Positions 3,075-54,618 of a stretch of DNA of 64,000 nucleotides are shown in pieces. This DNA comes from Prevotella sp. GTDB lineage: Bacteria; Bacteroidota; Bacteroidia; Bacteroidales; Bacteroidaceae. The stretch lies in assembly GCA_016291085.1 (NCBI GenBank), contig JAEEVW010000010.1:40053-104052 (forward strand), in the 5' to 3' direction. How positions within the stretch are numbered: the stretch's first letter is position 1; the number at the start of each line of letters is the position of its first letter. The translations under genes and the position numbers were made by a program. Under the pieces are notes generated by a model. That model saw only the letters and a list, made by a program, of their open reading frames with translations, did no database searches and was not told where the DNA came from.

Positions 3075-3184
3075 GACAGAGAAGCCTTCTCGCAACCGTT
3101 TGCGTTAGCCCAAACAACCGTGCGCGTTAGCCCAAACAACCGTGCGCGTTAGCCCAAACGACCGTTCGCGTATACGCAAAAGCT
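3075..3184. repeat. intergenic 22-bp-period array (about 5 units)
   Basis: Units at 3075, 3097, 3119, 3141, 3163; e.g. CGTGCGCGTTAGCCCAAACAAC; first unit contains GAGAAGCCTTCTC. Confidence 0.85.
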
Positions 3185-7095: not shown

Positions 7096-9198
7096 ATGAT
7101 GGAGATTAAAAACTTTACTATTACGAAGCGTGATGGAACGAAAGATCGCTTCTCTTTAGACAAGATTATGAATGCCATTGTGAAGGCATTCGAGAGTGTT
7201 GATGAACCTGCTGACCTTGGAACAGTTTCGAAGATTCTGAGCCATCTGGACATGCACGACGACATTAAGGTGGAGGATATTCAGAACCAGGTAGAGGAGG
7301 CTCTGATGCGCGAAGGCTTCTACAAGGTGGCCAAGTCGTTTATCCTTTATCGTCAAGAACACTCAGAGGATCGTGACACTTTGGAGAAAATGATGTTCCT
7401 GTCAGAGTACACCGAATCGGTGAACGCTGCAACGGGTTCGAAGTATGATGCCAATGCCAACGTGGAGCACAAGAATATTGCCACGCTGATTGGCGAGTTA
7501 CCCAAGTCGAACTTCATTCGTTTGAACCGTCGTCTGCTGGTTGACCGTATCAAGAAGATGTACGGCAAAGACCTCGCCAGCGAGTATATCGACAAACTGA
7601 CCCATCATTTTATATATAAGAACGACGAGACATCGTTGGCCAACTATTGTGCGTCTATTACCATGTACCCCTGGCTCATTGGTGGTACGACCGCCATTGG
7701 TGGCAACTCTACTGCTCCCACGAACCTGAAGTCGTTTGCTGGCGGTTTTGTTAATATGGTCTTTATGGTCAGCTCGATGTTGAGCGGTGCCTGTGCTACG
7801 CCTGAGTTCCTGATGTACATGAACTATTTCATCGGCAACGAATATGGCAAAGACTATTGGAAGCGTCCTGACGACCAGGCAGACCTCTCGTTGAAAAAGC
7901 GTACCATCGACAAGGTCATTACTGACTATTTCGAACAGATTGTCTATACCCTGAATCAGCCCACAGGTGCCCGTAACTATCAGGCTGTATTCTGGAATGT
8001 GGCTTACTACGACAAGTACTATTTCCAGAGCATCTTCGGTGAGTTCTACTTCCCCGATGGTTCTCAGCCTGATTGGGACGGCCTTTCTTGGTTGCAGAAG
8101 CGCTTCATGAAGTGGTTCAACCAGGAGCGTACCAAGACCCTCTTGACTTTCCCTGTTGAGACAATGGCGCTGCTCGTCGACGAGAACGGTGAGTGCAAGG
8201 ACAAGGAATGGGGCGACTTTACCGCTGAGATGTATGCTGAGGGCCACTCGTTCTTCACCTACATGAGCGACAACGCCGACTCACTGTCGTCTTGCTGCCG
8301 TCTGCGCAACGAGATTACCGACAACGGTTTCAGCTATACGCTGGGTGCTGGTGGCGTGTCGACAGGTTCGAAGTCTGTGCTCACCATCAATCTGAACCGT
8401 TGTATCCAGTATGCTGTGAACCACAAGATGGATTACCTGCAGTATCTGGAGGGTATCATCGATCTTTGCCACAAGGTACAGATGGCCTACAACGAGAATC
8501 TGAAGGAACTGCAGGCTCATGGCATGCTGCCGTTGTTCGATGCTGGCTATATCAACATCAATCGCCAGTATCTGACCATCGGTATCAACGGACTTGTGGA
8601 AGCCGCAGAATTCATGGGTCTGAAGATTACGCCCAACGATGACTATAAGAAGTTCGTTCAGGGTATCCTTGGACTCATCGAGAAGTACAACAAGCAGTAC
8701 CGTTCGAAGGAAGTGATGTTCAACTGTGAGATGATTCCTGCTGAGAACGTTGGTGTGAAGCATGCCAAGTGGGATCGTGAGGACGGCTACTTCGTACCAC
8801 GCGACTGCTACAACAGCTATTTCTATGTGGTTGAGGACGATTCGCTCAGCGTCATCGACAAGTTCAAACTGCATGGTGCTCCTTATATCGAGCATCTCAC
8901 GGGTGGTTCTGCTCTGCACATGAACTTGGACGAGCACCTGTCTAAGCAGCAGTATCTGCATCTGCTGAAGGTGGCTGCCCAGGAGGGTTGTAACTACTTC
9001 ACGTTCAATATCCCCAACACCGTTTGCAACGACTGTGGTCACATCGACAAACGCTATCTGAAGGAGTGTCCGCACTGCCACTCGAAGAATGTGGACTACA
9101 TGACCCGTATCATTGGCTATCTGAAACGCGTCTCGAACTTCTCACAGCCCCGTCAGGAAGAGGCAGCACGCCGTTTCTATGCACATGCGGAGGCTTAA
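7096..9198 (+). CDS. nrdD: anaerobic ribonucleoside-triphosphate reductase
   Basis: 700 aa; ATP cone N-terminus, SSCCRLRNE, C-terminal CNDCGHIDKRYLKECPHC and glycyl-radical region RIIGYLKR. Confidence 0.97.
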   Translation: MMEIKNFTITKRDGTKDRFSLDKIMNAIVKAFESVDEPADLGTVSKILSHLDMHDDIKVEDIQNQVEEALMREGFYKVAKSFILYRQEHSEDRDTLEKMMFLSEYTESVNAATGSKYDANANVEHKNIATLIGELPKSNFIRLNRRLLVDRIKKMYGKDLASEYIDKLTHHFIYKNDETSLANYCASITMYPWLIGGTTAIGGNSTAPTNLKSFAGGFVNMVFMVSSMLSGACATPEFLMYMNYFIGNEYGKDYWKRPDDQADLSLKKRTIDKVITDYFEQIVYTLNQPTGARNYQAVFWNVAYYDKYYFQSIFGEFYFPDGSQPDWDGLSWLQKRFMKWFNQERTKTLLTFPVETMALLVDENGECKDKEWGDFTAEMYAEGHSFFTYMSDNADSLSSCCRLRNEITDNGFSYTLGAGGVSTGSKSVLTINLNRCIQYAVNHKMDYLQYLEGIIDLCHKVQMAYNENLKELQAHGMLPLFDAGYININRQYLTIGINGLVEAAEFMGLKITPNDDYKKFVQGILGLIEKYNKQYRSKEVMFNCEMIPAENVGVKHAKWDREDGYFVPRDCYNSYFYVVEDDSLSVIDKFKLHGAPYIEHLTGGSALHMNLDEHLSKQQYLHLLKVAAQEGCNYFTFNIPNTVCNDCGHIDKRYLKECPHCHSKNVDYMTRIIGYLKRVSNFSQPRQEEAARRFYAHAEA

Positions 9199-12454: not shown

Positions 12455-15400
12455 ATGAGAAAGACAGGCAATAAGCAGGCAGACATAAGGGTATGGGGTG
12501 TTTTACTTTTTTACCTTTTTACCTTTTCTCCTTTGCTGGCTGACGATATCAGCCAGCAAGAGATGCAGCGCATCTACCAAGAGGTGCGCACGCCTTATAA
12601 ATATGGTATGGTGGTAGCCCCTACGGACAACTACCACAAGATAGACTGTCCGACAGTGTTCCGTGAAGGCGAAAAATGGCTGATGACCTATGTCGTTTAT
12701 AACGGCAAGGACGGACTCGATGGACGAGGCTATGAGACGTGGCTGGCTGAGAGTGACGACTTGTTGCATTGGACGACGAAGGGACGCCTTCTGTCGTATA
12801 AAGACGATGGTTGGGACATGAATCAGCGAGGTGGTTTTCCTGCCCTCATCGATTGGACTTGGGGCGGGGGCTACGAGCTCGGCGAATACAAAGGCAAGCA
12901 TTGGATGACCTATATCGGTGGGCACGGTACAGGCTACGAAGCTGTGCGCGAACCCCTGAACATCGGAATGGCTTGGACACAGGGCGAAATCACTAAAGCC
13001 CATGAGTGGCAGTCAGGCGAAAAACCGCTGATGAGCATTAATGACAAAGACGTGCAATGGTGGGAGCAATTGGTGCAATACAAGAGTACCATTTATAGCC
13101 TCACCCCCAGCTCCTCTCCGAAGGGCGAGGGGAGTGGTTTGCCCAAAGAACTGGCGAAGTATCGTTTTGTGATGTTCTACAATGCTGGCGGCGTCAATCC
13201 AGATAACAATTTGAAGGCTGAGCGCATTGGTATAGCCCTCAGCAACGACCTGAAGAAATGGAAACGCTATGATGGTAATCCCGTCTTTGCCAATGAGGTA
13301 GGTGGCATCATCACGGGTGATGCCCAGATAGCCAAGATGGGCGACCTGTATGTGATGTTTTATTTCAAGGCCTACGACCCGTCGCGCAAGTATAATGCCT
13401 TCAATACCTTTGCTGTGAGTCGCGACCTCATTCATTGGCAGCGATGGGAGGGTGAAGACCTCATCTGGCCCACGAAACCCTACGACGAGATGTTTGCCCA
13501 TAAGAGCTATGTAGTGAAGCACGATGGGGTGGTGTACCATTTTTATTGTGCAGTGAACAACGATCAACAGCGTGGCATCGCCGTTGCTACGAGTGTACCC
13601 ATGGGGCGCTCTGAGGTGCGTTTTCCAGAACCTGAACGCAAAGGTCGTCGCACGATCACTAACCTCAACGAAGGATGGATGGCAAGCATTGTGCCCGACG
13701 GAGAACCGTCGGGAACGGTGGCAGAACCATCGGGCGTCACCATCCCCCACAACTTCGATGACTACTACGGCTACCGCCAGCTACGGCATGGAAACCTGCA
13801 CGGTAGTGCCGTTTATCAGAAAACATTCGTCGCTCAACCACAAGAGGATAAGCGCTACTTCCTGCAGTTCGAGGGCGTGGGCACGTATGCTACCATCACC
13901 CTTAATGATACGCAATATTCTAAGGAACTGATTGGTCGCACCGTCTTTACCCTTGACGTTACAGAGGCTTTGAATACGGGCAAGAACACATTACACGTTC
14001 TTGTCGATCATCCTGCCATGCAGACGGAGTCACCTTGGGTATGTGGAGGTTGCTCATCAGAATGGGGTTTCTCTGAAGGTAGTCAGCCCTTTGGCATCTT
14101 CCGTCCTGTAACGCTCATCGAAACGGATGCTGTGCGCATTGAACCCTTTGGTGTGCATATTTGGAATAACGCTACCTGTGACTCAGTATTTATCGACACA
14201 GAGGTCAAGAATTACACCCAACAGCCTCAGACCTTTGAACTGGTCAATAAGTTTGCCCTCGCCTCTGGCAAAACTGTGTTCCGCCTATCACAAGAAATGA
14301 GACTGGAACCAGGAGAAATGCGAGTCATCCACCAGTCTTCTGCCATATCCAATGTACACCGCTGGTGTCTTGACGATCCTTATCTTTACACGCTCACATC
14401 AATGCTAAAGCGACCAGACCATTACGATGGTGATAGCAACCAACAGCGTGAGCCTGCCTACGTTACTTTCGATGAGGTGCGGACACCCTTCGGTATTCGT
14501 AACATCTCATGGCCTGTTAAGCGCAACGACGGAGATCATCGTTTCTTCCTCAACGGACAGCCAGTCTTTATCAATGGCACTTGCGAGTATGAACACCTTT
14601 TGGGTAATAGCCACGCCTTTACCCCAGAGCAGATCCGCTCGCGCATCAAGCAGATTACCAATGCGGGCTTTAACGCCTTCCGAGAGGCCCATCAGCCCCA
14701 TAACCTGCTCTATCAGCAGTTGCTCGACGAACAAGGCATCCTCTTCTGGAGCCAGTTCTCAGCACATATCTGGTACGATACTCCACAATTCCGTGAGAAC
14801 TTCAAACGGCTGCTAGTGCGATGGATTAAGGAGCGTCGCAATTCGCCCTCTGTTATCCTTTGGGGATTGCAGAACGAGAGTATCCTGCCCAAGGACTTTG
14901 CAGAAGAGTGCAGCGATATTATCCGCTCGCTTGACCCCACCTGTCGTGATCAGCGCCTCATTACTACGTGTAATGGTGGTGAGGGTACCGATTGGAACGT
15001 CATCCAGAACTGGAGTGGCACATACGGAGGCTCTGCTGAGAACTACGACAATGAGCTGAAGCGCCCTGAGCAATTGCTGAATGGCGAATATGGTGCTTGG
15101 CGCACCATCGACCTGCATGGTGATGCGAAATATAGCGAGGAAAGTTTTACCAAGCTATTGGAAACCAAGGTGCGGTTGGCAGAGAAAGCGTTTGATGTCA
15201 GCGGGGAAACCGCTGACAGCAAGGGCGTCTGCGGCCACTTCCAGTGGCTCTTCACCTCACACGACAATCCAGGCCGTGTGCAACCCGATGGCGCCCTACG
15301 TCGTATCGACAAGATTGGACCGATCAACTATAAAGGGCTGACGACGATTTGGGAGGAGCCTACGCCTGCGTATTATATGTATAGGCAGCGGTATGCGGGA

Positions 15401-29081: not shown

Positions 29082-32000
29082 ATGATGAGACGTTTTTATT
29101 TCTTTTTCTTTCTGCTGACAGTCTGTTTGATGGTATCAGCACAGCAAAGAGTGTATATATCTACCTCGTTCCACGAGCCAGCCACAGATGGTTTGCGGTT
29201 TATTTATAGCTACGACGGATGGACCTGGAACCAGGTCGACGGTATCTGGCTGAAGCCTGAGGTGGGGAATCAGAAAGTGATGCGCGACCCCTCGATTATT
29301 CGTACGCCCGATGGTATGTTCCATCTCGTGTGGACGTCGAGTTGGCGAGGTGACAGAGGCTTTGGCTATGCTTGTTCGAAGGATCTGGTACATTGGAATG
29401 AACAGCGTTTCATCGAGGTGATGACGGATACGACGACAGTCAACGTCTGGGCGCCCGAACTCTTCTGGGACGATGTGAAGAAGCAGGCTGTCATTATATG
29501 GGCATCGTGCATTCCAGGTAAGTTTCCTGATGGTCAGGAGGATCATAAGAACAATCATCGTCTCTACTATACCACCACAAAGGACTTTAAGAAGTTCACA
29601 CCCACGAAGCTGATGATTGACCCAGGGTTCTCGTGTATCGATGCCACGCTGGTGAAGCGTGCCAAGAACGACTATGTGATGGTGCTGAAGGACAATACCC
29701 GTCCTGAGCGCGACATCAAGGTGGCTTATGCCAAGACGCCTTATGGCCCGTGGTCGAAGGCTTCAGAACCTTTTACGGGTAAGATGATGGAAGGCCCGAC
29801 AACGGTAAAGGTAACGCGTAAAGTGGACAAAACCATAGAGAATGGCTGGCTCATCTACTACGACCGCTATCGTCTGAAGGACTTCGGAGCGCACTTTACG
29901 AAAGATTTTGTGATCTTCGAGGATGTCAGCGACAAGACCATTGTCCCCAACTTGCATAAGCACGGCACCATCTTTGAGGCTGACGAAACCATCCTGCAAG
30001 GTTTGTTGAATGCCAAGAAGATTCACTATACGGGTAAGACGTTGAGTAATCCCAATCGTCACGACGGAGGCCTGTCGCCAGTGGTCGGTGTGCATAACAT
30101 CCAAATTATGCGGGCCAATCGCGAATACCCTACAGAGGCTAACGGACAAGGGTGGACATATAACCATCAGCCCATGATGGCCTATTGGAATAATCAGTTC
30201 TATGTGCATTACCTCTGCGACCCTAGCGACGAACATGTGCCCCCTTCGCATACGATGTTACAGACCTCAAAGGACGGCTATACATGGACGAATCCGCAGG
30301 TATTGTTCCCTGAGGTGCAGGTGCCTGAAGGTTTTCAGAAGCCCAATCGTCCTGAGAAAGCCCACGACCTCATTGCTATCATGCACCAGCGGGTAGGGTG
30401 GTACGTCTCGAAGAGCGGACAACTATGGGCTCTTGGCAATTATGGCGTCGCCTTCGACAAGAAAGATGACCCCAACGATGGTAATGGCCTAGGGCGTGTC
30501 ATCCGCGAGGTGAAGAAAGACGGCACGCTGGGCTCGATTTATTTTCTTTACCTGAATGGGGCCTATAAGTCTTATAAGCCCTATTGGCCCTACTACACGA
30601 AGGCTCCCAAGGACGTCAAGACTGCCTGCGAAGAAATCCTCGCCAACCCCCGCTATCGCATGCAATGGGTAGAGGAGGCTGATCGCGAAGACCCGCTCAT
30701 TCCTTTGCATAAGGAGTACAAGGCCTATTGCGACTATACCCTGCCTGACGGACAGATTGCATCGCTGTGGAAACATGCACTGACATCGACCAGTGCGGAT
30801 GGTGGACTCACGTGGGCACAGCCAGTGGAACGTGCCAAGGGCTTTGTGAACAGCAACGCTAAGATATGGGGACAGCGACTTAGCGATGGAACCTATGCTA
30901 CTGTCTATAATCCTTCTGAATACCGTTGGCCGTTAGCTATCTCGTTAAGCAAGGATGGTTATGAGTATACCACGCTGAATATGGTGCAGGGCGAAGTGCC
31001 ACCTATGCGCTATGGTGGCAACTATAAGTCGTACGGACCGCAATATGTACGAGGCATCCAGGAGGGCAACGGCGTTCCTGCTGATGGCGACCTGTGGGTG
31101 ACGTATTCTATGAATAAGGAAGATATGTGGGTGGCTCATATCCCCGTGCCCGTACAGACGGAGGCCCATAGCCACGCTGATGGCACCGAGTTTATACCCA
31201 ACGGAAAAGCCGTTGGGCACAGTGGCCTTGCAATGCTTACAAATTGGAACATCTATTCCCCCGTCTATGCCCCCGTTTCGCTGAATGACGGATGGCTGAC
31301 ACTGAGTGACAGCGATCCCTTCGATTATGCCCGTGTGGAGCGCAAGATTCCTGCCACAAAGGAACTGAAGGTCGCCTTCGACCTGCGTGCCTCGCAGAAC
31401 GACAAAGGCTTGTTGCAGATTGAATTCCTCGATGCTCATGGTACTGCGTGTTCACGCATTGAGCTGACAGCTGAAGGCATTATGCGCTGTAAGGGTGGTG
31501 CACGCTATGGTAACTTAGGCAAATACGAGCGCAACACTACGTATCATATCGAGGCTATCTTAAGCGTCTCGAAGCGTATGATAGAGGTATATATCAATGG
31601 CAAGAAGGCTGGTCAGCGCATGTTCTTTGCGCCTGTGGAAACCATCGAGCGTGTCATGTTCCGTACGGGGTCAGAGCGTCGCTTCCCTGATGTCGACACA
31701 CCTGCCGATTGGGATGGCACCCTCGACAACGCTGGCGACACAGTGCCCACAGCGACCTTCGCCATTGCCAATGTTGTTACCACCCCCGAAGGAGATTGCA
31801 ACGCCACACTCCGACCTCAGGTCGGAGAACCTTCGGGCACTGCGGCCTTCCTCCGCTACGACGACTACAAGCACTACGTCGACTACTTCAACACGATGGA
31901 GGACGAAAACATCGTCCAGGCCATTCCTAACGAGAAAGCATGGAAGTGGATGACGCAGAACGTGCCCCTCTTCGATTGTCCCAACAAGGACTTTGAGGAA

Positions 32001-33329
32001 ATGTGGTACTACCGCTGGTGGACACTCCGCAAACACATCGAACTGACGCCTGTGGGTTATGCGATGACGGAGTTTCTGGTCAATCGTAACTATGCTGACA
32101 AGTGGAAGCTCATCTCCTCGGGTGTGGGCCATCATATCCACGAGAGCCGTTGGCTCAGAGACAGCACGTACCTCGACCAGATTGTCCGCACGTGGTACAA
32201 AGGCAACGAGGGCAAACCTATGGCGAAACTCATGAGATATTCCTCGTGGATAGCCCATTCTTTGTGGCAGCGCCACTTGGTAGATGGTCGCAAGCAGTGG
32301 TACATCGACCTGCTGCCCTCGTTGGAGTGGGAGTACAACGAGTGGGAAACGACACACACTCGCGAAGGCGGTCTCTACTGGCAGGAGGACGTTCGCGACG
32401 CGATGGAGGAAACCATCAGTGGCGGACGCAAGAAGAAGTACCTGCGCCCCTCCATCAATGCCTATATGTATGGCAACGCAATGGCCATTGGCAATATCTT
32501 TGCCCTTAGTGGTTCTCCCGCCAAGGCCCAAACGTATTTCGCCAAGGCCAACGACCTGAAGGAAAAGGTCCACGCGAAGCTTTGGAACGAGAACCACCAA
32601 TTCTTCGAGACCCACCGCATTGACTCCTCATCGAACGTTCGCGAAGCCATTGGCTTCATGCCTTGGTACACCCACATGGCGAAAGATGAGGCGAAATATG
32701 CTGTTGCCTGGCTTCAGGCTGCTGACCCTGAAGGCTTCTCGGCTCCCTACGGACTGACTACCGCTGAGCGTCGTCATCCCGAATTCCGTACGCATGGTGT
32801 AGGCCAGTGCGAATGGGACGGTGCCGTATGGCCCTTCGCCACCAGCCAGACGCTGACAGCCCTTGCAAACTTCGCCAATGACTATTCTACAGTCTCCTGT
32901 CTCCCGACTCCTGACTCCTTGTTTTTCGCTGAAATGGAGAAATACATGCAGAGCCAGCACATGCGTGGCAAGCCCTATATTGGCGAATATCTCGATGAAA
33001 CCACGGGCTATTGGCTGAAAGGCGACCAGGAACGCTCGCGCTATTACAACCATTCTACGTGGAACGACCTGATGATTACAGGTCTTTGTGGTCTGCGCCC
33101 TCGCGCTGATCAGACCCTTGAGGTGAATCCTTTATTGCCTGAAAACAAGTGGGACTATTTCTGTCTCGACAATGTGCTCTATCATGGTCACAACCTCACC
33201 ATCGTATGGGACAAGGACGGCTCGCGCTATCATGCTGGCAAAGGCCTTCGCGTTTACGTTGATGGCACACTCGCAGGCCACCGCGACACCCTCGGAAGGC
33301 TCATCGTCGAGAACGCGTTAAGGCGCTGA
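29082..33329 (+). CDS. giant multidomain CAZyme: GH43-like propeller + second sialidase/BNR-like propeller + LamG-like + C-terminal (alpha/alpha)6-type catalytic domain (GH142-like)
   Basis: 1415 aa; RDPSIIRTPDGMFHLVW; BNR-like DGGLTWAQPVERAKG; C-terminal SSGVGHHIHESRWLRDSTYLDQIVRTW ... CEWDGAVWPFATSQTL. Confidence 0.65.
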   Translation: MMRRFYFFFFLLTVCLMVSAQQRVYISTSFHEPATDGLRFIYSYDGWTWNQVDGIWLKPEVGNQKVMRDPSIIRTPDGMFHLVWTSSWRGDRGFGYACSKDLVHWNEQRFIEVMTDTTTVNVWAPELFWDDVKKQAVIIWASCIPGKFPDGQEDHKNNHRLYYTTTKDFKKFTPTKLMIDPGFSCIDATLVKRAKNDYVMVLKDNTRPERDIKVAYAKTPYGPWSKASEPFTGKMMEGPTTVKVTRKVDKTIENGWLIYYDRYRLKDFGAHFTKDFVIFEDVSDKTIVPNLHKHGTIFEADETILQGLLNAKKIHYTGKTLSNPNRHDGGLSPVVGVHNIQIMRANREYPTEANGQGWTYNHQPMMAYWNNQFYVHYLCDPSDEHVPPSHTMLQTSKDGYTWTNPQVLFPEVQVPEGFQKPNRPEKAHDLIAIMHQRVGWYVSKSGQLWALGNYGVAFDKKDDPNDGNGLGRVIREVKKDGTLGSIYFLYLNGAYKSYKPYWPYYTKAPKDVKTACEEILANPRYRMQWVEEADREDPLIPLHKEYKAYCDYTLPDGQIASLWKHALTSTSADGGLTWAQPVERAKGFVNSNAKIWGQRLSDGTYATVYNPSEYRWPLAISLSKDGYEYTTLNMVQGEVPPMRYGGNYKSYGPQYVRGIQEGNGVPADGDLWVTYSMNKEDMWVAHIPVPVQTEAHSHADGTEFIPNGKAVGHSGLAMLTNWNIYSPVYAPVSLNDGWLTLSDSDPFDYARVERKIPATKELKVAFDLRASQNDKGLLQIEFLDAHGTACSRIELTAEGIMRCKGGARYGNLGKYERNTTYHIEAILSVSKRMIEVYINGKKAGQRMFFAPVETIERVMFRTGSERRFPDVDTPADWDGTLDNAGDTVPTATFAIANVVTTPEGDCNATLRPQVGEPSGTAAFLRYDDYKHYVDYFNTMEDENIVQAIPNEKAWKWMTQNVPLFDCPNKDFEEMWYYRWWTLRKHIELTPVGYAMTEFLVNRNYADKWKLISSGVGHHIHESRWLRDSTYLDQIVRTWYKGNEGKPMAKLMRYSSWIAHSLWQRHLVDGRKQWYIDLLPSLEWEYNEWETTHTREGGLYWQEDVRDAMEETISGGRKKKYLRPSINAYMYGNAMAIGNIFALSGSPAKAQTYFAKANDLKEKVHAKLWNENHQFFETHRIDSSSNVREAIGFMPWYTHMAKDEAKYAVAWLQAADPEGFSAPYGLTTAERRHPEFRTHGVGQCEWDGAVWPFATSQTLTALANFANDYSTVSCLPTPDSLFFAEMEKYMQSQHMRGKPYIGEYLDETTGYWLKGDQERSRYYNHSTWNDLMITGLCGLRPRADQTLEVNPLLPENKWDYFCLDNVLYHGHNLTIVWDKDGSRYHAGKGLRVYVDGTLAGHRDTLGRLIVENALRR
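31197..31227. repeat. in-frame palindromic element
   Basis: CCCAACGG AAAAG CCGTTGGG CACAGTGGCC. Confidence 0.75.
31803..31841. repeat. in-frame palindromic element
   Basis: GCCACACTCCGACCT C AGGTCGGAGAACCTTCGGGCACT; 9-bp arms 31809-31817 / 31819-31827. Confidence 0.8.
32891..32918. repeat. in-frame heptamer tandem repeat
   Basis: AGTCTCC TGTCTCC CGACTCC TGACTCC encodes TVSCLPTPDS. Confidence 0.7.
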
Positions 33330-43198: not shown

Positions 43199-43285
43199 CG
43201 ACATCAAAAGTCAAGCAATTGACTGATATTTAAGTAGAAAACAAACATTATTAATTCATTTTATTCATTAAAACAATTTTTGATT

Positions 43286-43909
43286 ATGAAGAAAATTATG
43301 ATGATTGCAGCTATGATGCTGCTGAGCGTAGGTGCTTTTGCACAGAACGAAGTTGGTCAGTTTACTTTGAAGCCCATGGCTGGTGTGAACCTCGCTACAA
43401 TGACAGACACCAACGACTCTAAGATGCGTGTAGGTCTTGCTGCTGGTGTTGAGGGTGAATATGGTGTTGCTGAAAACTTCAGTATTAGCCTTGGTGCTCT
43501 CTATTCTATGCAGGGTGTGAAGTTCACACGTCAGCTTTTAGGTGCTTCAATGGATGCGACCTTTAAACTTGACTACATCAACGTTCCCATCATGCTCAAC
43601 TACTATCTTTTCAAGGGATTTGCCATTAAAGCTGGTGTCCAGCCTGCTTTCAAGGCTTCTGCTAAACTTAAGGCTGAAGCTTCTGCTAATGGCCAGTCTG
43701 ACAGTGATTCTGAGTCTATCTCTGATTATGTACAGGGCTTTAATCTTTCTATTCCCTTTGGTCTGTCTTACGAGTATGAGAGTTTCGTTCTCGATGCACG
43801 TTACAACCTTGGTGTGACCAAGGCATTCAAGGATAACAATGGCATGGGTGCTGACGATTCTAAGCACTCTTGGTTCATGTTTACCCTGGGTTACAAGTTC
43901 GCTCTCTAA
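43286..43909 (+). CDS. outer-membrane beta-barrel (porin-family) protein
   Basis: MKKIMMIAAMMLLSVGAFAQNEVGQFTLKPMAGVNLATMTD ... FTLGYKFAL; ATG at 43286. Confidence 0.82.
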   Translation: MKKIMMIAAMMLLSVGAFAQNEVGQFTLKPMAGVNLATMTDTNDSKMRVGLAAGVEGEYGVAENFSISLGALYSMQGVKFTRQLLGASMDATFKLDYINVPIMLNYYLFKGFAIKAGVQPAFKASAKLKAEASANGQSDSDSESISDYVQGFNLSIPFGLSYEYESFVLDARYNLGVTKAFKDNNGMGADDSKHSWFMFTLGYKFAL

Positions 43910-43937: not shown

Positions 43938-43967
43938 GGCGCTCCTCCTCATCGAGGGGCGCTTTTT
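43938..43967 (+). terminator. rho-independent terminator
   Basis: GCGCTCCTC ctcatc GAGGGGCGCTTTTT. Confidence 0.8.
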
Positions 43968-43989
43968 GTTTGCACGTACCTCGTGGACC

Positions 43990-44182
43990 GTTTGCTCGGA
44001 GCAATCGATGGGTTTGCTCGGAGCAATCGATGGGCCCGCTCGGAGCAACAAGCCGTTTCGCTGGTAGCGAGAGGCCGTTTCTCTCCCAGTGAGAGGCCGT
44101 TTCTCTCCCAGCGAGAAGCCGTGTTGCTATTTTTCCCTGGGCAGGGAATTTTTGCGCGCTGGGCAGGGCGCAAATTTTCGCT
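43990..44182. repeat. intergenic 22-bp-period hairpin array (about 8-9 units)
   Basis: Units GTTTGCTCGGAGCAATCGATGG (43990, 44012), one 21-bp unit (44034), GTTTCTCTCCCAGTGAGAGGCC (44077) etc.; CTGGGCAGGG hairpins at 44137 and 44159 keep the 22-bp spacing. Confidence 0.85.
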
Positions 44183-44332
44183 TAGCAACGTGCCAGTGAT
44201 GACGATGACAGTGATGACAGTGGGGGTATTTATTTTCTGACGGTGTGGCAAATTTGCAGTAGCATTATATTATATAATATATATTATATATATAATGGCA
44301 ATCTTTTTCTACAAGCGATGACAAAAATAGGC

Positions 44333-44359
44333 CGGTGTCATCGGTGTCATCGGTGTCAT
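44333..44359. repeat. nonamer (CGGTGTCAT)x3
   Basis: Exact triplicate. Confidence 0.85.
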
Positions 44360-44459
44360 CGTCAGCGAAAACATTCTGTATAATGATGGCACTGATGACA
44401 ACGGGGCTGGTTGTTCGTCCTATAAGTTGGAAACTTATAACACTAAAGCATATCAAAGA

Positions 44460-46286
44460 ATGATGAAACAGAATTATCCGAAGATTGGTATTCGTCCGAC
44501 GATTGATGGTCGCCAGGGCGGTATCCGCGAGGGACTGGAAGAGAAGACGATGGCGCTGGCCAACGCAGTGAAGAACCTGATTGAGAGCAACCTGAAGAAT
44601 GGTGACGGCTCGAAGGTAGAGTGTGTGATTTCTGATACGACGATTGGTCGTGTCGGCGAGAGTGCCGCCTGTGCCGAGAAATTCGAGCGCGAGGGTGTAG
44701 GTTCGACCATTACCGTCACGTCGTGCTGGTGCTACGGCTCAGAGACGATGGACATGAACCCTATCTATCCGAAGGCTGTTTGGGGCTTCAACGGTACGGA
44801 GCGCCCAGGAGCCGTTTATCTGGCTGCTGTGCTGGCTGCACACGCCCAGAAGGGTCTGCCCGCTTATGGCATCTATGGCCACGACGTGCAGGACTTGGCA
44901 GACAACACCATTCCTGAGGATGTTGCAGAAAAAATTCTGCGCTTTGCCCGTGCCGCTCAGGCTGTGGCTACGATGCGTGGCAAGAGCTATCTGTCGCTGG
45001 GCAATACCTGTATGGGTATCGCTGGAAGTATCGTCAATGCCGACTTCCTGCAACAGTATTTAGGCATGCGTACCGAGTATGTATCGCTGGTAGAGATATT
45101 GCGTCGCGTCGACTTCGGCATCTACGACAAGGACGAGTTCGAGAAGGCTATGAAGTGGGTTGACAAGTACTGCAAGCCCAACGAGGGCCATGACTATAAC
45201 GAGGACCGTCCGCTGTTCCCAGGCGTGCCCATGACGACGTTCAACGGCAAGGGCAAGGGTAAGAACCGCCAGGAGAAGGACGAGGACTGGGAGTTCACCG
45301 TGAAGACAATGATGATTATCCGTGACCTGATGCAGGGAAGCGAAAAGCTGCTCGAGATGGGCTACAAGGAAGAGGCTATCGGCCACAACGCCATTGCAGC
45401 TGGTGTACAAGGTCAGCGCCAGTGGACGGACTACAAGCCCAACTTCGACTTCCCTGAGTCGCTGATGTGCACGTCGTTCGACTGGAACGGCCCTCGCGAG
45501 GCTTACACGCTGGCTACGGAGAACGATTTCCTGAACGGTATGTCGATGCTGTTCGGCCACCTGCTGACCAACAAAGGCGTGATGTTCAGCGACATTCGCA
45601 CCTATTGGAGCCCAGAGGCCGTAGAACGCGTGGCAGGTACGGTGCCCAGCGGTTTAGCCGCTGGTGGTTTCATCCACCTCATCAACAGCGGTGCAACCAC
45701 CCTCGACGCTACGGGTGCCATGAGCGACAAGGACGGTAACCCCACCATCAAGAACTTCTGGGAGATGAAGCAGGAAGACGTGGAGGCCTGTCTGAAGGCT
45801 ACCAGTTGGATGCCTGCCGATCGCGACTACTTCCGCGGCGGTGGTTACTCGTCGCACTTCGTAACCCGTGGTGGTATGCCCATGACCATGCTGCGTCTGA
45901 ACCTCGTAGCTGGCTTAGGTCCCGTACTGCAGTTGGCTGAAGGCTGGACGGTTGAGCTCGACCCCAAGACGCACGACATCCTCGACAAGCGTACAGACCC
46001 CACATGGCCTACCACGTGGTTTGCCCCACGTCTCGACCCCACGAAGGATGCCTTCAAGGACGTCTACTCAGTCATGAACAACTGGGGAGCTAACCACGGT
46101 GCCATCTGCTACGGACACGTAGGAGCCGACCTCATCACGCTGTGTGCAATGCTGCGTATCCCCGTCTGCATGCACAACATTGCCGATAAGGACATCTTCC
46201 GTCCTGCCGCTTGGAATGCATTCGGTATGGACAAAGAAGGCGCCGACTATCGTGCCTGCGCCAACTTCGGACCAATATATAAGTAA
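44460..46286 (+). CDS. fucI: L-fucose isomerase
   Basis: [73 protein letters not shown]. Confidence 0.95.
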
Positions 46287-51758: not shown

Positions 51759-52342
51759 AGAAAGATTTGATAGAAAGACTGTTGAACGAGCAGACCACAC
51801 CCGAAGAGGAGCATCTCGTAGCCCAGATGCTTCAGCAAGAGGAGGATATGGACTCTTGGCTCGCAGAAGACGAGACGGCAGAATACGACCGCATCGTCAA
51901 CGAACGTCGTGCCAAGCATCGTACGTTGCGATGGGCTGTTGCCGCAGTCATCGTGGCGTTCATTGCGGTGGGGGCCATTGTGCTTTGGCCAAGGGAACAG
52001 CTTGATCCTGGAACACAGTGTCCAGATTTTTCCGAGAGACATACTTCTGTTGTCATTACAGAACCATCAAAACCTGAGGCACCACCCACGAAAGCCAAGA
52101 AACGTATCAGAAGGAAGGCAGCAGTTTCTACCACTGACAGCCTGCAATACTACATTGCCCGTTTGGAGAAGGAACTGGAGAACGTTAACGAAAGCACTTA
52201 CACCGCCAAAGCAGAAGAGGTGTTGCGTGCTGACGCCCGATTGCAGAAGCTGGTACAACGCATCATGATGGGCGAACTGACGAAAGACGATGTGTCTGCT
52301 GAGGCAATGAATACGAACCAAACAATGGAGGAACAGCCATGA
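51755..52342 (+). CDS. putative anti-sigma / single-TM regulatory protein
   Basis: Overlaps ECF sigma gene; one TM (AAVIVAFIAVGAIVLW). Confidence 0.6.
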   Translation: MKKDLIERLLNEQTTPEEEHLVAQMLQQEEDMDSWLAEDETAEYDRIVNERRAKHRTLRWAVAAVIVAFIAVGAIVLWPREQLDPGTQCPDFSERHTSVVITEPSKPEAPPTKAKKRIRRKAAVSTTDSLQYYIARLEKELENVNESTYTAKAEEVLRADARLQKLVQRIMMGELTKDDVSAEAMNTNQTMEEQP

Positions 52343-54618
52343 GACGTTTGATATTAATCATAGGAATAGCGTGGGCTACGCTGAACATGAATGCCCAGAG
52401 CATCTATAGTTTTGGCGACCTGCGGGCCAAAGTGCTCCATGTGGGTCAGAAACTGACTGGTCATAACTCCGCTAACGATCAGGCCATTGCAGTCATTGTG
52501 CGAGAGTTGGCTACGAACTATCAAGGTCGTTTGTCGCGCCAACAGTTTCAGGAGCTGAAAGACACCATCGAGAGTATGCGTCAGCAAATCACAGCGGACA
52601 CTTGGAAAACGGTCTTAAACAGTGCCGTTGAAACGTTGCAGGAAAAGACGGATACACTCGACATCGAGCAGCGAATTCTTAACTACTACCGACGAGTACC
52701 ACAGGAACAGATCTACGTCCACACCGACAAGCCTTACTACGTGGCAGGTGATACTGTTTGGTTCCGAGCCCATTTGGTGGATGCTGTTACGCATACGCCC
52801 ATCAGCCGCTCGCGTTTTGTCTATGTGGAACTGCATGACCAGCAGGCTGATACGCTCTTGCAACGCATCATCGTGAAGTGCGATTCGGATGGCGTCTTTG
52901 CCAATGCCATCACTTTGCCTCGTGGAATGAAGGGAGGCTGCTATACCCTTGCAGCCTATACACAATGGATGCGTAACTTTCCTGCCGAAAGGTTCTTCTA
53001 CAAGCAATTGCTGGTTATTGATAGTTCCCAAGGTGGGAACGATTCATTCCCAAAGTGGGAACGATTCATTCCCAAGGTGGGAACAATTCATTCCCAAGGT
53101 GGGAATCCGTCGCTACAAGTAGTCCAACGCAAAGGGCAACTGCTTATCCAATTGAACAAGCCTACTAACGAGCCTCTCTCGTGTGTGCTTTATGGTAGTG
53201 GGAACCTCATAGTCACTGACTATACATCAGGGAAGGTGTTACGTATTGACAGCAAAACACTACGTCCAGGAAACCTCTGCATAGCTATCGTCAACCGCGA
53301 GACGGGATACGTCATTGCTGAAAGCCAGACCACCATCGAGGGAACTCAGCCACAGGTAGCCATTAGTGGTAAAGCTCGTACCCTGAACGAACCGATGGAG
53401 TTGTCGATAGACCTTGCAGAATCTGACGGTACACCGCTCTATGGAAGCTTCTCGCTGTCGGTTGCCGATTACGACGTGGTAATCCCCGATACGATACAAC
53501 CATCTATTGACAAGTCTCTGAACCAACTATCTGCCGACTACCCTTTGGCTGATATACTCAACGGCACATACCCCCGCATCGACTATGGTTTCCAGACCAC
53601 ACAGACCATTACTGGGCAGATTCGTGGTACTATCTTCAAAAAAATCAAGAATCCCAAGCTGATGTTGGTACGGCCAGATACCGGATTCCGTCAGACCTTC
53701 GAACTTGGCGACAGTTGCCGCTTTACCATCAACGGCCTCGACTTCGCCGACGGTACAACCTACGTACTGGAGGGTATGCGACGTACAGGCAGTACCAGCC
53801 TCGTACAACTGGATATCACCACACAGACATTCCCTACCTTACATTCGCCTTTTTCCTCTGCCCCATCATCTCTTTCCGTCCCAGACAACTTCGCAAAGCA
53901 AGCTCAAGAGCAGGTGATGTATGGTAGCATAGACCGCGAGATAGAACTGCCCGAAGTAGTCAAGGAGAAGAAGCGTCAGCACAAGCCCACCAACTTAATG
54001 GGGATGCCACCCTTCCGTGCCTTCTATGATGACGACCCCTTGCTCAACAATTTCTACTCGATGGAGATTCTGCTCAGTACCTTAGGCATTCCCGTCTATC
54101 GCGATGCTAATGGCGAGTTACAAATCAGATACCGCTCAGGCACAGTTACGCGAGCGATGCAAGGTCCAGTCATTTTCATCGACGAGTTTCGTAGCAACGT
54201 GGAGGAATTACTGATGCTTCAGCCCCAGGCCATTGAGTCCATCGAATGGTTCGACCATGTCGGTGCCGCCAACATGACCATCTATGGCTGGGACGTGTCA
54301 ACCTCGGGACTATTGCTTGTCCGGCAGAAACCTGGTCTTCATGGTAGGATATTCCGTCCCTTGTCAATGGCTACGGTGCAGCAACAGGGTTGGAAACCCA
54401 ATGTCGAGTTCTATTCTCCGCAATACACGGACAAGAGTCAGAAGACGCGCCCTGACCATCGAACCACACTCTACTGGAATCCGAAGGTCACGACAGACAT
54501 CAATGGTCATGCTCAGGTCCGCTTCTACGCCTCCGACATCTCCAAACGTTATTTGGTGACGCTGGAAGGTGTCAGCAACGACGGAACTGTCGTACGAAAA
54601 CAAATGGTCATAGAATAA
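52339..54618 (+). CDS. secreted MG2/carboxypeptidase-regulatory-like outer-membrane-associated protein
   Basis: YVHTDKPYYVAGDTVWFRAHLVDAVTHTPISRSRFVYVEL is the MG2-like signature; C-terminal FYSPQYTDKSQKTRPDHRTTLYWNP. Confidence 0.75.
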   Translation: MRRLILIIGIAWATLNMNAQSIYSFGDLRAKVLHVGQKLTGHNSANDQAIAVIVRELATNYQGRLSRQQFQELKDTIESMRQQITADTWKTVLNSAVETLQEKTDTLDIEQRILNYYRRVPQEQIYVHTDKPYYVAGDTVWFRAHLVDAVTHTPISRSRFVYVELHDQQADTLLQRIIVKCDSDGVFANAITLPRGMKGGCYTLAAYTQWMRNFPAERFFYKQLLVIDSSQGGNDSFPKWERFIPKVGTIHSQGGNPSLQVVQRKGQLLIQLNKPTNEPLSCVLYGSGNLIVTDYTSGKVLRIDSKTLRPGNLCIAIVNRETGYVIAESQTTIEGTQPQVAISGKARTLNEPMELSIDLAESDGTPLYGSFSLSVADYDVVIPDTIQPSIDKSLNQLSADYPLADILNGTYPRIDYGFQTTQTITGQIRGTIFKKIKNPKLMLVRPDTGFRQTFELGDSCRFTINGLDFADGTTYVLEGMRRTGSTSLVQLDITTQTFPTLHSPFSSAPSSLSVPDNFAKQAQEQVMYGSIDREIELPEVVKEKKRQHKPTNLMGMPPFRAFYDDDPLLNNFYSMEILLSTLGIPVYRDANGELQIRYRSGTVTRAMQGPVIFIDEFRSNVEELLMLQPQAIESIEWFDHVGAANMTIYGWDVSTSGLLLVRQKPGLHGRIFRPLSMATVQQQGWKPNVEFYSPQYTDKSQKTRPDHRTTLYWNPKVTTDINGHAQVRFYASDISKRYLVTLEGVSNDGTVVRKQMVIE
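53025..53105. repeat. in-frame 22-bp-period hairpin array (3 full units plus a core)
   Basis: TTCCCAAGGTGGGAACGATTCA x3 + TTCCCAAGGTGGGAA; 3 x 22 = 66 nt keeps frame. Confidence 0.93.

Follow-up and report, generated by a model that had tools for sequence, protein, structure and literature searches.

An 11-nt lattice of palindrome axes in the 22-bp hairpin arrays of Prevotella

The hairpin array and its surroundings

We analyzed a 64,000-nt stretch of Prevotella sp. DNA (the window), in which a hairpin array lies between the terminator of an outer-membrane protein gene and an L-fucose isomerase-like gene. The features of this region are listed below; the gene names were assigned from their open reading frames and are putative.

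43280 to 43909, + strand: gene for an outer-membrane beta-barrel-like protein, upstream of the array
43939 to 43970, + strand: intrinsic terminator of the upstream gene as read from the sequence, directly before the array
43985 to 44122, no strand assigned: the hairpin array (target array), six CTnnnAG cores at 22-nt steps
44123 to 44189, no strand assigned: GTTGCTA ... TTAGCAAC bracket around two CTGGGCAGGG hairpins, from the sequence
44190 to 44386, no strand assigned: right part of a dispersed composite element, delimited by alignment with the copies on contigs C21 and C41 (the latter split); it contains GATGACA repeats, an AT-rich palindrome and TGTCATCGG repeats inverted relative to the left GATGACA block
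44460 to 46286, + strand: L-fucose isomerase-like gene, downstream of the array

The six cores of the target array lie at 43995, 44017, 44039, 44061, 44083 and 44105, each exactly 22 nt from the next. The first-pass annotation had described a 22-bp hairpin array here with a single 21-bp step. Every unit it quoted was found in the sequence; the 21-bp step was not borne out, since core-to-core spacing is 22 throughout and the apparent shortening arose from where the units had been cut. The arms are of the type TTTGCT/AGCAAT in units 1 and 2, degenerate in unit 3, and of the type TTTC(G/T)CT/AGCGAGA in units 4 to 6, with the linkers GATGG, AGCCG and GGCCG. When an axis was called wherever at least five of seven positions paired, with G-T counted as a pair, axes were located at 43998, 44009, 44020, 44064, 44075, 44086, 44097, 44108 and 44119. 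These fall on a single 11-nt lattice that spans both arm types and has three vacant points, all at the non-pairing unit 3; the arms are short (~7 nt) and separated by loops that are by turns 3 and ~5 nt long, so that an axis recurs every 11 nt and the 22-bp repeat results from reflection across adjacent axes. The lattice supports the earlier claim that one register is kept through unrelated arm sequences. The array scored 97 to 100 in Tandem Repeats Finder, and compared with dinucleotide shuffles its folding z was -3.1 for RNA and -3.8 for DNA. These data confirmed that the hairpin array noticed in the first pass is real. A scan of the window with Rfam 15 gave no match above any family's gathering threshold, and a tRNA scan of it found nothing. 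A CRISPR array, which would have repeats of 24 to 48 bp and unique spacers, was rejected as a reading of the target, whose period is 22 nt and whose variable parts are loops of only 3 and 5 nt.

The terminator hairpin at 43939 to 43970 occupies the same place in the relatives G105 and G098. Homologs of the outer-membrane gene were found in 160 of 200 genus genomes and of the L-fucose isomerase-like gene in 44 of 150. The two CTGGGCAGGG hairpins, at 44137 and 44159, are likewise 22 nt apart, the first beginning 32 nt past the last core; T-tracts flank them and give them the appearance of bidirectional terminators.

The target array forms the left part of a dispersed repeat of ~370 bp, of which two further long copies (on C21 and, split, on C41) and one partial copy (on C55) were found, 79 to 84% identical; the pair of CTGGGCAGGG hairpins is retained in all three. 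A 431-bp query aligned with contig C21 over 382 query bases, and a 200-bp query from the target matched 34 places in its own genome. The two halves of the C41 copy lie ~2.8 kb apart with inverted ends GTAAGCTGTCAATTTTGACG (G000:C41:20013-22841; L004/L043), evidently as the result of an insertion into the composite element. Inverted GATGACA/TGTCATC blocks stand on both sides of the right part of the element, and the AT-rich palindrome within it, TTATATAATATATATTATATATATAA (window 44266 to 44297), is itself dispersed in the same genome and in G008 (L050, L034, L039). The stem type of the target, GAGAAGCC, is nearly restricted to 3 of 398 genus genomes (13, 4 and 1 copies), with single matches in four further genomes.

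Turnover, distribution and variability of the arrays

Contig C9 of the relative G105 is colinear with the entire window at ~82 to 89% identity, and the arrays were compared site by site. Two further intergenic arrays of the window enter into it.

3093 to 3171, no strand assigned: 22-bp array with weak palindromy, intergenic
20714 to 20865, no strand assigned: second intergenic array, reversed GAGAAGCC type and GGGCGCCCGCCC type, absent from G105

At the target site, 426 bp in the window stand against 55 bp at the syntenic site in G105, where the array is absent, and at the 20.7-kb site 278 bp stand against 58. At the 3.1-kb intergenic site G105 carries a 21-bp array whose sequence is unrelated to the 22-bp array of the window; at an intragenic site near 53 kb both genomes carry arrays, on different stems; and G105 has a 21-bp array of its own at the site matching window position 33320. 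In G098 an array lies behind the orthologous outer-membrane gene, but its neighborhood differs. Arrays of this kind therefore turn over fast between close species. The proposed link between the target and the array at 20771, which carries the GAGAAGCC type in reverse orientation, was confirmed, and in the 20714 to 20865 array, too, both arm types sit on one 11-nt axis lattice. The proposed link to position 3075 held for a short GAGAAGCC hairpin there, but not for the adjoining 22-bp array, which is unrelated. Other repeats of the region include a 21-bp unit, CAACGCCACACTCCGACCTCA, at window position 31799 that is missing from G105, AACGCCACACT-type hairpins that recur elsewhere in the same genome (L007, L030), and tandem repeats of 7 to 8 bp such as TTTTACCT/AAAGGTAA at window positions 12501, 38719, 49249, 57445 and 61501; among short tandem repeats in the sampled genome, periods of 7 to 9 were the commonest.

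We further compared tandem periods in 464 kb of the target's own genome and in stretches of 120 to 140 kb per relative. In these samples, five Prevotella-type genomes had their mode of long tandem periods at 21 to 22, and two other families of the same order did not. By an arm-based test, hairpin arms were enriched in 49 arrays of period 21 or 22 (Fisher P = 3.5e-5), and 44 arrays of other periods showed no enrichment (P = 0.93); an earlier test of self-complementarity on repeat consensus units had given a weak signal only. Many period-22 arrays are non-palindromic, and there was no genome-wide excess of phased palindromes with differing arms at lag 22.

Individual stem families are confined to parts of the genus. 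The AGTCCG family, TCGGACTnnnAGTCCGA, was found in 8 of 120 genus genomes with at most 20 copies, and its reversed control pattern gave single matches in two of the 120. In a scan of 84,980 species, arrays with the AGTCCG stem were found at 104 places, and each of the 80 records listed bore the name of Prevotella, Prevotellaceae or a parent group, most of them coming from the rumen. Among the matches listed, the surroundings of the AGTCCG-array loci of G007 and G098 are sequence-identical to named rumen records. The genome of tc2-28, a cultured rumen strain of Prevotella, likewise contains AGTCCG arrays. A composite element of ~200 bp, present in many rumen Prevotella species, has AATAAGG, AATAACC and AGTCCG stems all in one 22-nt register, just as the first-pass annotation had described different sequence types sharing a register in the target. 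We noted it as a phased-hairpin element in intergenic DNA at L251, L256, L263 and about 15 more loci. With gene calls that were made mechanically and genomes many of which are metagenome assemblies, the arrays lay in 31 tandem, 12 convergent and 10 divergent gaps and within 14 predicted genes, as expected from the available space and with no preference for gene orientation. One AGTCCG array came from a contig of a viral collection (L345, IMGVR_UViG_3300031867_000459, 8488-8516), which could represent a prophage or else host DNA that was misbinned.

Within families, variation is concentrated in the loops. In the target family the triloop positions had an entropy of 1.5 to 1.7 bits and the arms 0 to 0.86; in the AGTCCG family, too, it is the loops that vary, with the arms partly fixed by the search pattern. 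In both the target and the AGTCCG families the arm sequence is conserved, and a changed arm usually lacks a matching change in its local partner. For this reason the check for compensatory changes that had been proposed for the target failed in its own family, where arm covariation over 17 distinct arm pairs was not above shuffles (P = 0.13) and a T.C mismatch is present in 28 of 46 units; it succeeded at the 53-kb array described below, in which 13 species share the axes and the arms have been replaced. Local covariation across the triloop was not above shuffles in the AGTCCG family either, and the array-level covariation seen there came from one arm type only. Inverted neighboring loops, a signature of template switching, showed no overall enrichment, although the loops of the GCT/AGC family are almost exclusively CGG or its complement CCG.

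Fixed axes and replaced arms within coding genes

The annotation had treated the arrays as an intergenic multi-copy class. Several intergenic copies do exist, but the class is not strictly intergenic, because one array of the window sits in a coding gene.

52339 to 54618, + strand: 759-aa gene (open reading frame), host of the following array in frame
53025 to 53105, no strand assigned: 22-bp array TTCCCA-nnn-TGGGAA, 3.7 copies, axes at 53032 + 11k

Orthologs of the 759-aa gene were found in 20 of 398 genus genomes. In 14 of the 19 orthologs that were compared, the array site is occupied by a segment exactly 177 nt long, and 13 of these segments are distinct. Across these 13 species the best seven of 136 palindrome centers were 57, 68, 79, 90, 101, 112 and 123, which form a ladder with 11-nt steps. 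The six inner axes showed 75.5% pairing, which dropped to 14 to 38% when they were shifted by 1 to 5 nt. Compensatory species pairs numbered 110.5 per axis compared to 26.6 +/- 4.2 (maximum 41) in shuffled columns; these counts of species are not counts of independent events, and how many arm switches lie behind them is left unfixed by the host-gene tree, which is weakly supported and poorly resolved. Between the window and G105, G106, G107 and G098 the array is only 26 to 36% identical, compared to 80 to 86% for its flanks. The arms are of the type TTCC in the window, G064 and G173, AGTCC in eight genomes, GCGTAC in G413 and GTAAAG in G107; just one or two axes are strongly kept in G413 and G107, and the palindromes are largely lost in G211. 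The G413 arms, GCGTACT/AGTACGC, occur nowhere else in that genome, so they arose in place and were not imported.

Neither the axis step of 11 nor the unit of 22 is a multiple of 3, so selection at the level of the protein cannot be the cause of the ladder. The array encodes a stretch of ~27 aa that is wholly different from species to species and constant in length, a protein segment that has apparently been rewritten by DNA symmetry.

A second gene-borne array, of the GAGAAGCC type, adds 45 nt in frame to a DegT-like aminotransferase gene (L014, G000:C41:17742-17805). The 45-nt addition is present in the same genome as the target, in G098 and in G107, shorter inserts are present in G105, G031 and G155, and most species have none. 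Axes at 58, 69/70, 80/81 and 91 are common to the three species, two more agree partially, and compensation is slight. Taken together, these data show that the arms change in concert while the spacing of the axes persists, as does their position wherever it is traceable.

Origin of the arrays

Palindromic minisatellites form a genus-wide class in Prevotella, and the target array is one of them. We put a probability of about 0.5 on the reading that the class is explained by hairpin-templated rewriting of arms across fixed axes, combined with slippage and a copying route. During replication, the nascent strand would fold into a hairpin and copy the partner arm, so that a change would be mirrored over the axis. 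Mirroring from one axis to the next, 11 nt away, would displace the change by 22 nt, and reflection across neighboring axes would in this manner generate the 22-bp tandem repeat. Slippage would add or remove units, and arm families would move between loci and species by some copying route, since the same families occur at many loci and in many species and local correction alone would be insufficient.

The main support for rewriting is the 53025 to 53105 array, with its fixed axes, fixed 177-nt length and compensated replacement of arms; the hairpin enrichment at periods 21/22, the greater variability of loops than of arms, the fast turnover and the lack of orientation bias also count in its favor. 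Two-arm compensatory changes at a fixed palindrome center, as template switching would leave them, are present at the 53-kb array and not significant in the target family. From the missing covariation in the target and AGTCCG families it follows that arms are not in every case fully corrected. If the template were switched between strands, loops would be expected to be inverted, and with no enrichment of inverted loops only same-strand template switching fits. Rewriting would need no host function for the arrays, and their gene contexts suggest none. Nothing in the mechanism by itself fixes the spacing of 11 nt.

Template switching (quasipalindrome mutagenesis) is a published mechanism that homogenizes the arms of inverted repeats, with compensatory changes possible and coding genes included (PMC8604942, PMC8794818, PMC7202029); as described there it concerns single hairpins, whereas here it would have to work along chains of axes and hold an array in register across the genus. 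We tentatively suggest that Prevotella possesses a dedicated or unusually active form of in-register rewriting, acting on both arms of every hairpin, which maintains sequence-independent 11-nt axis lattices genus-wide, in intergenic and intragenic DNA alike, so that position and not sequence is inherited.

Eleven base pairs correspond to about one helical turn, and a selected nucleic-acid structure, such as a cruciform or an RNA hairpin, or an array bound by a symmetric protein, could hold axes and spacing while the recognized arm sequence drifts. The constant spacing of 11/22 nt with free loops, the massive compensation at conserved axes of the 53-kb array, the ~200-bp composite element with one register over several arm types in many species, and the folding z of the target array are all consistent with this. 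However, the arrays show no preference for gene orientation, lie also within coding genes, are lacking from the orthologous intergenic sites in a close relative and comprise several unrelated arm families per genome. The 53-kb array also diverges far more than its flanks, where purifying selection would have slowed divergence. We consider such selection the main rival to rewriting, though a less likely origin of the class.

We regard it as unlikely that the arrays are non-autonomous mobile palindromic elements (REP- or MITE-like) whose cassettes are copied by a transposase acting in trans. Such copying would suit the place of the target array at the left of a dispersed ~370-bp element, the second composite cassette dispersed in many rumen species and the restriction of families to certain species, but by itself it leaves unexplained both why 13 species carry unrelated arms on the same axes and at the same length and why arms such as those of G413 occur once per genome. 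REP/BIME sequences with RAYT transposases are palindromes of 20 to 40 nt, numerous per genome and sometimes clustered or in genes (PMC3733652). They resemble the Prevotella arrays in their conserved stems, variable loops and many palindromes per genome, and differ from them in that the arrays are strictly head-to-tail at 22 nt, with head-head or tail-tail dimers not predominant, and have many unrelated stem families per genus. A REP/RAYT assignment failed on tag, Y1 transposase and dimer orientation. No GTAG/CGTC tag was present in the target linkers or in the 20 linkers most frequent in the AGTCCG family, and neither the target's own genome (G000, 96.6% complete) nor G024, both with 22-bp arrays, gave a match to PF01797 (Y1 transposase), which was matched in most other relatives searched.

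Among described elements, the target is most like BrickBuilt in its working, a minisatellite-MITE of Porphyromonas gingivalis with a 23-nt tandem repeat, predicted long stem-loops and variable copy number (PMC4596501). Both belong to the same order and are non-coding dispersed elements whose core is a tandem repeat of comparable length, and the target has several dispersed copies carrying the repeat (C21, split C41, partial C55). BrickBuilt consists of one repeat sequence in one species group, with a leader and a tail and with IS-tied terminal inverted repeats; it is reported as always intergenic and without described rewriting at fixed axes, whereas the Prevotella arrays occur also in genes. 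PINSR, a 188-bp intergenic repeat of Prevotella intermedia (PMC4755523), may be a cousin, being lineage-restricted, intergenic, non-coding and dispersed in the same genus; it has no terminal inverted repeats and is described as a single 188-bp consensus. The Rickettsia palindromic elements and the mitochondrial coding palindromes of Nematomorpha, several of whose inverted repeats share midpoint positions between species (PMC6649704), are similar in lying in frame within protein genes but are non-tandem and have no 11-nt axis lattice, and no bacterial replacement of arms at fixed axes is reported with them. No description of fixed-axis hairpin arrays was found in the open-licence papers searched, which is weak evidence of absence.

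Ordinary VNTR slippage with incidental palindromes agrees with the tandem structure, the near-identity of adjacent units and the many period-22 arrays without palindromy, yet it is very improbable given that hairpin enrichment is limited to periods 21/22, that unrelated arm types share one register and that axes are kept across species at the 53-kb array. That the arrays are transcription terminators or 3'-end stabilizers of mRNA is barely credible: the target follows a terminator and precedes two hairpins with T-tracts, but its own hairpins have none, and arrays occupy convergent, tandem and divergent gaps in proportion to space and occur inside genes.

Tandem repeats are usually regarded as inherited by sequence. 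Here it is the symmetry axes and the unit length that are inherited, while the sequence undergoes compensated rewriting at a faster pace than the gene around it; covariation alone is no proof of a functional RNA. Rewriting at fixed axes would account for repeats that seem unrelated between species and elude homology searches, and the arrays of Prevotella may document, in nature, how hairpins template the rewriting of bacterial DNA, or else point to a factor that reads DNA symmetry.
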